From the NCBI GenBank assembly GCA_017415185.1, contig JAFQHZ010000010.1:1-41120 (forward strand): DNA of 41,120 nucleotides, read 5' to 3'. Made by a program: the position numbers and the translations under genes. The notes beneath the pieces were generated by a model. The model was not told the DNA's origin and did no database searches. It was given only the letters and a program-made list of their open reading frames with translations. This stretch comes from Candidatus Gastranaerophilales bacterium. Its GTDB lineage: Bacteria; Cyanobacteriota; Vampirovibrionia; Gastranaerophilales; Gastranaerophilaceae. How positions within the stretch are numbered: the stretch's first letter is position 1; each line of letters opens with the position of its first letter. Shown piece after piece: positions 2,997 through 41,120 of this stretch.

Positions 2997-3028
2997 AAAA
3001 CCCCTCTTATTTTAAGAGGGGTTTTGTT
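2997..3028 (+). terminator. Rho-independent terminator
   Basis: Perfect 8-bp stem CCCCTCTT/AAGAGGGG (3001-3008 and 3014-3021) with a 5-nt loop, flanked by AAAA upstream and TTTT downstream. It ends the rluB-serS-secreted protein unit. Confidence 0.92.
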
Positions 3029-3049
3029 ATATATAATTTCTTTGCGAGC

Positions 3050-3091
3050 TTGCAATATATATATATATTAGAATGCTTCCAAAAAGGAGTA
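3050..3091 (+). promoter_or_regulatory. Pseudopilin leader: (TA)6 promoter tract and SD hairpin
   Basis: TTGCAA (3050-3055), then (TA)6 plus T, then TAGAAT (3069-3074) read as -35, spacer and -10. The spacer is 13 bp, short for a sigma-70 promoter. Downstream, TGCTTC (3074-3079) can pair with GGAGTA (3086-3091), which hides the AAGGAG ribosome site (3084-3089). The same arrangement, with (TA)7, precedes the pseudopilin gene at 40964. Confidence 0.5.
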
Positions 3092-3100
3092 TTTTGATAT

Positions 3101-3880
3101 ATGAAAAAAGCTTTTACTTTGGCTGAAGTTATGATTGTGCTTGTAGTTATCGGTGTATTAACTGCTGTTCTTCTTCCTGCTGCCCGAAATGCAATGCCTA
3201 AAGAGGATGTTATTAAATTTAAAAAAGGACATAATACTTTGCTTTCGGTTGTTCGAGAGCTTGTCACATCTGATAAATATTATCTTGATGGGGATTTGGG
3301 GATTAGGACTAATGGGCAAGTTTTAAATCAGAGCAATGAAGACAATCACAGTTATTTAATTTCAACTTTTGCAGACATATTGTCATTGAATTATATGTCG
3401 CCAAAAGTTGGTTCTTTGACTAATGTAGCGTGGTTTCCAACATACGATTATGATTGTTATGGGAATACTATATCGCAAGAGCTTGATACATGTTCTGGGC
3501 AAGAAGTGACTAAGGATACAATTGATTTTATAAAAGCACATATAAATACAGCTTGCAAAAAGGGCTCAGTAGATCAAGTCAAACAAGTGGTAACTAATGA
3601 TGGGATTTGGTTTTGGGACCCTGCTCCATACTTTACTCTTGGAATGACTGAAAATCCTAATGGCACAGGCAGAAGAGCTTTTCACTTGAAGGATAAAAAC
3701 GGTTTCTATGCATTGTATAAGCTTTTTTGCATGGATATAGATGGCGTTCCGGATTCTGCAACTGATGATGATTGCGTTAATGAATGTCCTTTTAGTTATG
3801 GAATTAGTGCGGATGGAAAAATTTTTACTTCCAAGCGAGTCGATGAATGGCTTGAAAAGTCAATACAAGAAAAAGATTAA
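3101..3880 (+). CDS. Type IV pilin-like / pseudopilin protein
   Basis: The product is 259 aa. The N-terminus is a class III prepilin signal: short MKKA leader, cleavage expected before FTLAEVMIVLVVIGVLTAVL, with the conserved Glu at mature position 5 and a hydrophobic alpha-1 helix. The residue before the cut is Ala, not the usual Gly, so processing by a prepilin peptidase (PilD-like) is inferred. The rest is a soluble domain with an Asp-rich, Cys-containing C-terminal part (for example DIDGVPDSATDDDCVNECPF). It probably sits in or exports through a type IV pilus/type II secretion-like assembly; no pilus machinery gene is in the window. The ATG is 11 nt after AAGGAG. Exact role unknown. Confidence 0.8.
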   Translation: MKKAFTLAEVMIVLVVIGVLTAVLLPAARNAMPKEDVIKFKKGHNTLLSVVRELVTSDKYYLDGDLGIRTNGQVLNQSNEDNHSYLISTFADILSLNYMSPKVGSLTNVAWFPTYDYDCYGNTISQELDTCSGQEVTKDTIDFIKAHINTACKKGSVDQVKQVVTNDGIWFWDPAPYFTLGMTENPNGTGRRAFHLKDKNGFYALYKLFCMDIDGVPDSATDDDCVNECPFSYGISADGKIFTSKRVDEWLEKSIQEKD

Positions 3881-39999: not shown

Positions 40000-40027
40000 T
40001 TGCCCCAAAATACCTTTGTGCTAGAAT
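40000..40027 (+). promoter_or_regulatory. Promoter for tpiA
   Basis: TTGCCC (40000-40005), 16-bp spacer, extended -10 TGC-TAGAAT (40022-40027). It shows TAGAAT used as a -10 in this genome, which supports the same reading in the pseudopilin leaders. Confidence 0.55.
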
Positions 40028-40060
40028 AACTCTTGTAAGTAAATTTTAAGGAGTTATATT

Positions 40061-40834
40061 ATGGCAAGAAGACCAATTATTGCTGGTAACTGGAAAATGC
40101 ACAACAATAAAGCTGCTGCAAGAGAATTAATGGATGGCATAAACTATGGAATTTCTAAATTAGATGCTTCAAAAATGCCTGAAGTTGTAGTAGCTCCAAC
40201 TTATACTGCTTTATGGCAAGTTTATGAATTAATTAAAAATGAACCAAAAGTAGCCCTTGCTGCTCAAAACGTTAATCCAAATCCAAAAGGCGCATATACA
40301 GGGGAAATCTCTCTTGAAATGTTGGCTGATTTTAATGTTAAATTTGTTATTATTGGACACAGCGAACGTCGCCAAATGTTCAATGAAACTGATGAATTTA
40401 TTAATCAAAAAGCAATTGCAATTTTAAATGCTGGTTTAATTCCAATTATTTGTTGTGGTGAAACACTTGAACAAAGAGAAGCTGGCGTTACTGACGCTCA
40501 TTTAGAAGCTCAAATTACAAAAGCATTAGCTGGAATTTCAGCAGACGACGTTGCAAAATCTGTTATTGCTTATGAACCAATTTGGGCAATTGGAACTGGA
40601 AAATCTTGTGATGCTGTTGAAGCAAATAGAACAATTGGCGAAATTAGAAAAGTTGTTGCTAAATTGTATTCTCAAGATGTTGCAGATAAAATCAGAATTC
40701 TTTACGGCGGTTCTGTAAAACCTTCAACAATTGTTGAACAAATGGCTCAGCCAGAAATCGATGGCGGCTTAATTGGTGGAGCTTCATTGGAAGCAGAAAG
40801 CTTTGTTGCATTAATTGAAGGCGCTATGCAATAA
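40061..40834 (+). CDS. tpiA: Triosephosphate isomerase
   Basis: The product is 257 aa. It interconverts dihydroxyacetone phosphate and glyceraldehyde-3-phosphate in glycolysis. GNWKMH near residue 9 (Asn, Lys), catalytic His in IIGHSERR, catalytic Glu in AYEPIWAIGTGK, loop 7 ILYGGSVKP and GLIGGASLE are all present. AAGGAG site before the ATG, own promoter, and terminator after. Ordinary. Confidence 0.97.
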   Translation: MARRPIIAGNWKMHNNKAAARELMDGINYGISKLDASKMPEVVVAPTYTALWQVYELIKNEPKVALAAQNVNPNPKGAYTGEISLEMLADFNVKFVIIGHSERRQMFNETDEFINQKAIAILNAGLIPIICCGETLEQREAGVTDAHLEAQITKALAGISADDVAKSVIAYEPIWAIGTGKSCDAVEANRTIGEIRKVVAKLYSQDVADKIRILYGGSVKPSTIVEQMAQPEIDGGLIGGASLEAESFVALIEGAMQ

Positions 40835-40851
40835 GATTTTTTATTGATTTT

Positions 40852-40878
40852 AAAAGAGGCTCGTTGAGCCTCTTTTTT
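40852..40878 (+). terminator. Rho-independent terminator after tpiA
   Basis: AAAAGAGGCT (40852-40861) pairs with AGCCTCTTTT (from 40867) across a 5-nt loop, followed by T's. Confidence 0.92.
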
Positions 40879-40912: not shown

Positions 40913-40955
40913 TTGAAATATATATATATATATTAGAATGCTCCTCAAAGGAGTA
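40913..40955 (+). promoter_or_regulatory. Pseudopilin leader: (TA)7 promoter tract and SD hairpin
   Basis: TTGAAA (40913-40918), (TA)7 plus T, TAGAAT (40934-40939): spacer 15 bp. TGCTCC (40939-40944) pairs with GGAGTA (40950-40955), covering the AAGGAG site. Compared with the leader at 3050, the third base pair from the loop changes from T-G to C-G, so pairing is kept. Confidence 0.55.
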
Positions 40956-40963
40956 TAGTTTTC

Positions 40964-41120
40964 ATGATAAAAAAATCTTTAACCCCTGCCTTCACCATGG
41001 CAGAAGCAACATTAGTTATGACAATCCTCGGTATCATAGCAACAATCATGATAACAACCCTAAAACCTGCAGAATTTAAAGAAAAAGCCCTTAAAACCCT
41101 ATACAAAAAAGTCCTCTCTG
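40964..41120 (+). CDS. Pseudopilin-like protein, N-terminal part (runs off window)
   Basis: 52 codons are visible. MIKKSLTPA followed by FTMAEATLVMTILGIIATIM is a class III prepilin signal with Glu at mature position 5. The ATG lies 10 nt after AGGAG. The following LKPAEFKEKALKTLYKKVLS matches the helix that continues alpha-1 in such proteins. Third member of this family in the window (with 1-511 and 3101-3880). Confidence 0.8.
   Translation, partial: MIKKSLTPAFTMAEATLVMTILGIIATIMITTLKPAEFKEKALKTLYKKVLS

Follow-up and report, generated by a model that had tools for sequence, protein, structure and literature searches.

The window, a 41,120-nucleotide stretch of DNA from Candidatus Gastranaerophilales bacterium that forms contig C4 of a 1.87 Mb metagenome assembly in 43 contigs (genome G000), carries two prepilin-type genes on the forward strand, each preceded by the same promoter-like arrangement. 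The first gene (3101..3880) encodes a 259-residue protein of the FTLAE subfamily; the second, of the FTMAE subfamily, starts with the ATG at 40964 and is truncated by the contig end (40964..41120). Upstream of the first gene, also on the forward strand, lie a -35-like hexamer TTGCAA (3050..3055), a pure (TA)6 tract (3056..3067), a single T and a -10-like hexamer TAGAAT (3069..3074), with 13 bp from hexamer to hexamer. The corresponding elements of the second gene, on the same strand, are TTGAAA (40913..40918), a pure (TA)7 tract (40919..40932), a T and TAGAAT (40934..40939), 15 bp apart. The initial annotation had reported TTGMAA, a pure TA tract and a T before both starts, with spacings of 13 and 15 bp that differ by one TA unit, and re-reading of the window returned the same sequences, coordinates and counts. 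A hairpin scan placed an intrinsic-terminator-like hairpin on the forward strand at 3003..3021, between the upstream gene and the first promoter copy, and AAAAGAGGCTCGTTGAGCCTCTTTTTT near 40853 is a terminator-like hairpin just 5' of the second. With one gene in the FTLAE and the other in the FTMAE subfamily, common gene ancestry is not a simple cause of the shared layout. Chance repetition in AT-rich DNA was ruled out by three observed (TA)6 tracts in the window against 0.01 expected and by reversed controls that gave zero. An alternative promoter from the consensus scan, with TTGCGA at 3042, a spacer of 16 and TATATT, was rejected because other copies do not conserve it.

The protein encoded at 3101 scores 22.5 bits with the N_methyl family PF07963 (cut-off 21.2) and 23.7 bits with TIGR02532 (cut-off 16.3); it possesses the prepilin cleavage/methylation motif, in which FTLAE is invariant among 26 relatives, and its family has about 36 matches in G000. 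The AlphaFold model (pLDDT 85.7) features a long N-terminal helix. A fold search for a clear relative yielded none, as Foldseek returned no solved structure at E <= 0.001 and the sole structural alignment with Z above 2 was to the pilin FimA (Z 3.6).

The arrangement recurs throughout the genome. The pattern TATATATTAGAATGCT occurs 16 times and TTGNNATATATATATAT 26 times in G000, against zero for the reversed control of each, and looser patterns, TA searches and inspection of prepilin upstream regions bring the promoter core to about 29 loci, most of which retain TTGNAA. The initial annotation spoke of two genes; both sites are as it described them, and the actual scale is about 29. A prepilin gene lies downstream of every copy with readable downstream sequence. 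Each TA count being one consensus of a metagenome assembly, the tracts comprise two of (TA)6 (window 3050 and C18), 23 of (TA)7, three of (TA)8 (C17:15164, C40:85219 and C21:281) and one that is interrupted (C7:34949). Three of the loci form a second class (class B) with CTCTTGA(TA)7TTATAAG or similar, and the copy on contig C43 has TAACAT in place of TAGAAT. Another (TA)6 tract among the matches listed, C3:19552, is unrelated to the core, and the tract-free prepilin genes of G000 have ordinary-looking promoters such as TTGACA-17-TATAAT. Four copies (C15:357, C36:26569, C21:281 and C25:64933; L225, L227, L298 and L299) carry TTCTAA instead of TTGNAA, so that TTCTAA(TA)nTTAGAA forms a perfect palindrome and the -35 TTG is lost. 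At least seven FTMAE copies with near-identical 5' coding sequence lie at or near contig ends (C4:41120, C15:1, C17:1, the end of C18, C21:1, C35:1 and C36), where an assembly would be expected to break off at a multi-copy gene.

Among the 28 genomes of the genus, TTGNNA(TA)5+ is found in three only: G000, G005 and G017, the last a metagenome-assembled genome named 'Cyanobacteria bacterium SIG27' that NCBI places in the Cyanobacteriota/Melainabacteria group. Alignment of prepilin upstream regions and counting of TA units, as the initial annotation had proposed, gave 6, 7 or 8 units in G000, 6 or 7 in G017 and 8, 9 or 10 in the variant core of G005. The core with TTAGAAT was not found in any other of the roughly 380 genomes of the order (383 scanned), which excludes a general feature of the whole group; the few remaining TA matches in this set are scattered in other genera and lack the rest of the core. 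G008 and other members of the genus have equally large prepilin families with upstream sequences that contain neither tract nor hairpin. G008, a sister species, has 33 prepilin matches; their upstream regions (L334-L353) are all different, and several contain inverted repeats around TTGACA-like promoters. The matches in other phyla were discarded as ordinary promoters or chance, and six matches on viral contigs as chance sites that lack the TTGNAA part. One Firmicute, Candidatus Oscillibacter excrementigallinarum, has CTTGAAA(TA)7TTAGAAT (L182, 5929-5957) before an unrelated 347-residue ORF. The goat-caecum co-assembly genome RGIG1918 is no independent sample of TA counts, because two of its contigs (L302 and L303) are 100% identical over their whole length to C23 and C41 of G000; one goat-caecum co-assembly contig set appears to have been binned twice, and G000 very likely derives from that goat-caecum dataset as well.

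The core TTGNAA-(TA)n-T-TAGAAT is likely to be a promoter. At about 29 loci a pure dinucleotide tract lies between consensus-like -35 and -10 hexamers, the layout of a repeat-spacer promoter of the hif type. TTAGAAT has a mean pairwise identity of 97.6% over 24 copies, compared with 50.8% at the third codon positions of the G000 prepilins, whose median amino-acid identity is 41%, and the TA tract is pure in all G000 copies but one. CTTGNAA(TA)nTTAGAAT is the only part retained in the G017 copies; the sequences that flank it, immediately 5' of CTTG and immediately 3' of TTAGAAT, differ, and inserted repeats of about 50-170 nt separate the core from the ATG. Such inserts, which include GTCATTCTGAG-type palindromes, also lie between core and ATG in G000 (C8:42661-42826, C42:7-172 and others), with several in G017, and they replace the leader in both genomes and leave the core unchanged. 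Three FTMAE copies (C18, C35 and C21) read TTAGAATCTTGCCATG, with the ATG about 6-7 nt 3' of TAGAAT and the TAG of TTAGAAT as an in-frame stop, and have neither Shine-Dalgarno sequence nor hairpin; this layout fits a leaderless RNA starting at the ATG (+1). In the tract-free prepilin upstream regions of the genus (n=79), pairs resembling TTGACA and TATAAT peak at a spacing of 17 bp (9 versus 0.94 in shuffles); a genome-wide survey of exact TTGACA/TATAAT spacings gave 12 matches against 7 in the control and no usable peak. On the 17-bp scale (TA)8 would be optimal, (TA)7 2 bp short and (TA)6 4 bp short, and (TA)8 is probably the strongest promoter state. The conservation of the core amid replaced flanks, the leaderless-type ATGs and the genus peak at 17 bp uphold the promoter elements named in the initial annotation, as an assignment made from sequence. 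Several features count against it. The spacer of the class B element TTGA(TA)7TTATAAG comes to 13 bp with TTGATA taken as the -35, the G005 variant has no clear -10, and the four TTCTAA copies lack the -35 TTG; a spacing of 15 bp is also short for a sigma-70 promoter, which would make most copies weak.

An inverted repeat occupies the segment from TTAGAAT to the ATG, with the Shine-Dalgarno sequence as its 3' arm; the initial annotation had missed this hairpin. In the first window copy the 5' arm ATATATTAGAATGCTTC (3063..3079, forward strand) spans the end of the TA tract, the -10 and the discriminator, and the 3' arm GGAGTATTTTGATATAT (3086..3102, forward strand) contains the Shine-Dalgarno GGAG and extends into the start codon; the resulting stem of 16-17 pairs, G-U pairs included, begins in the TA tract and reaches the start codon. 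The second window copy has the common form, ATGCTCCT-CAA-AGGAGTAT (40938..40956, forward strand), with GGAG sequestered in the predicted fold, and the class B leader reads ATAAGCTCTTT-TCA-AAGGAGTTTAT. Variant arms occur in matched form, as with ATACTCC..GGAGTAT in a G017 copy and TGCTCC..GGAGCA in L016, and copies with long inserts often retain end-to-end pairing, for example TATATTAGAATTTCAT with ATGGAGTTCTAATATA in G017. The arms coevolve: matched arms fold at -10.0 kcal/mol, swapped arms at -7.3, and none of 500 permutations was as low. The same test gave 0/500 within the short G000 leaders and 0/500 within G017; the excess was not seen in four G000 insert copies or in three G005 copies. 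The predicted probability that the Shine-Dalgarno sequence is unpaired averages 0.10 in the core leaders versus 0.70 in 23 other genes of the window, so by folding prediction the inverted repeat sequesters the ribosome site, as in systems that protect against read-through. No Rfam family was found at the leader. With the RNA start placed at the predicted +1, 7 nt 3' of TAGAAT, the transcript lacks the 5' arm, and the predicted hairpin disappears from nearly all short leaders.

These hairpins could also be explained by a start site further upstream, with the TA tract and TTAGAAT themselves transcribed, the 5' RNA hairpin controlling translation as a thermometer, an attenuator or a regulator target, and the TA number secondary. 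The coevolving arms and the almost complete predicted sequestration of the Shine-Dalgarno sequence would be expected of such an RNA, as would the 14-17 pairs that run through TTAGAAT into TATAT in the first window copy, in class B and in G017; pairing that enters TAGAAT and the tract, as it does in several copies, is easier to understand if these are transcribed and counts against a start after TAGAAT. However, no conserved promoter is present upstream, where sequence replacement extends as far as CTTG, the 5' arms mostly end 5-8 nt past TAGAAT, where transcription is expected to start, and the three copies with the ATG about 6-7 nt past TAGAAT, devoid of Shine-Dalgarno sequence and hairpin, fit a start at the ATG. 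We consider a transcribed tract improbable.

If the core is a promoter, its spacer has changed length repeatedly. TA tract lengths differ by whole units only, both between copies and among the three species, as in hif-type promoters, and in G000 such whole-unit spacers (13, 15 and 17 bp) are frequent. Mapped on a tree of 27 prepilins, the length classes require 8 changes, compared with 7.5 for shuffled labels, so that tract length carries no phylogenetic signal and shows no inertia; the tree groups the window gene at 3101, of 6 units, with its closest relative, of 7 units, at a support of 100/98. A difference of one unit separates L298 from L299, whose 37-nt upstream flanks are identical, and likewise L277 from L298 and, in G005, L202 from L205, whose 37-nt downstream flanks are identical. 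These sequence comparisons lend good support to repeated slippage by whole units in the course of evolution; of the possible slipped-strand switch suggested in the initial annotation, it is the slippage that finds support, on this evolutionary scale, in whole-unit changes between copies and between species.

Whether such slippage serves a switch is a separate matter. The sharp mode at seven units (23 of 29 tracts; 15 bp in the main class) speaks against a simple fast switch and is as expected of a fixed spacer, and 6-8 units are short for a hypermutable dinucleotide tract, a further point against fast switching. The tract may instead be a structural spacer conserved within an atypical promoter, 15 bp long with easily untwisted TA steps, spread by duplication and conversion, its length differences being rare slips that play no part in switching. 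Exactly seven units in 23 of the 29 tracts, lengths of 6-8 units below the (TA)9-11 of hif, and flank modules common to many copies, which imply recent copying, are all in keeping with such a spacer. Yet a plain spacer need not stay pure TA while neutral neighbours diverge to about 50% identity, and the length changes are as frequent as those of a shuffled label, occur between identical flanks and are found in three species. We regard the structural spacer as a serious contender that falls short of being probable. The shared flanks also raise the idea that the core acts chiefly as a recombination joint, at which upstream and downstream modules are swapped between pilin genes and whose conservation homologous exchange requires. 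The same upstream module does occur with different downstream modules and vice versa (L298/L299 and L298/L277; also L272), and many contigs end at these pilin genes, as repeats cause in assemblies. All such cases, however, come from the ends of contigs in a short-read co-assembly, and repeat resolution there could produce the pattern; a joint also leaves the position before start codons and the coevolving arms unexplained; of the readings discussed here it seems to us the least plausible.

We propose, with about even confidence, a multi-locus pilin promoter cassette that combines a slippable spacer with a filter against the translation of read-through RNA. In this cassette reading a dispersed prepilin gene family would be driven by copies of one unit consisting of the -35 TTGNAA, the pure TA spacer and the -10 TAGAAT. 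Each TA unit gained or lost by slipped-strand mispairing, possibly in a reversible manner, would shift the -35 relative to the -10 by a step of 2 bp (13, 15 or 17 bp), and the spacing would be expected to set promoter strength gene by gene, with seven units and 15 bp as the usual state. The -10 and the next 5-8 bases would double as the 5' arm of the hairpin, with the Shine-Dalgarno sequence as its 3' arm. RNA from the cassette's own promoter would start past the 5' arm and be translatable, while read-through RNA from upstream would retain the arm and hide the ribosome site, which would make pilin output dependent on the state of the local promoter. A more far-reaching version, a genome-wide contingency array in which about 29 dispersed pilin promoters are set singly by TA slippage, read-through RNA is made untranslatable by the hairpin and the population displays shifting sets of pilins, is put forward tentatively and we think it somewhat doubtful.

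The closest known system appears to be the hifA/hifB promoter of Haemophilus influenzae, a TA-repeat promoter (van Ham 1993; see PMC2651432 and PMC3899988). Like hif, the pilin cassette has a TA tract between -35 and -10 before a pilus gene, and the unit count changes the spacing of the hexamers. The two differ in locus number, gene type, tract length and the Shine-Dalgarno hairpin: in hif a divergent promoter serves hifA and hifB of a chaperone-usher fimbria, the tract is (TA)9-11 and switching is proven, whereas here about 29 separate one-way promoters precede unrelated type IV-like prepilins, the tracts are mostly of seven units, a Shine-Dalgarno hairpin is added and switching is a proposal. 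In Neisseria meningitidis the -35/-10 spacer of porA contains a poly-G tract (PMC3899988). The porA promoter resembles the cassette in having a simple repeat of variable length inside the spacer, but its repeat is mononucleotide and confined to one porin gene, as opposed to dinucleotide tracts at many loci. In the transposase genes of IS10 and IS200, the ribosome site is hidden by an inverted repeat when the RNA comes in from outside, and only then; RNA from their own promoter lacks the 5' arm. The pilin leaders would work alike, the 5' arm being present only in incoming RNA, as far as sequence can tell; in IS10 and IS200 it is insertion sequences that are protected, whereas here chromosomal pilin genes are proposed to be guarded. 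What appears to be new is the double role of the -10, which together with the bases following it serves as 5' arm in a hairpin whose arms coevolve and which pairs the Shine-Dalgarno sequence. Our literature search found no published report of such a promoter in this bacterial group. A slippable promoter joined to a hairpin that blocks read-through translation is a clear and testable design, and the TA tracts are short enough to be covered by ordinary metagenome reads. If the tracts do switch, a single genome outside the well-studied pathogens would contain TA-spacer promoters in large number, which would offer an explanation for surface variation in an uncultured gut lineage.

Elsewhere in the window, the leader (40025-40063) of the ORF at 40061, which likely encodes triosephosphate isomerase, is predicted to fold over its own Shine-Dalgarno sequence (-8.4 kcal/mol; probability of being free 0.0).
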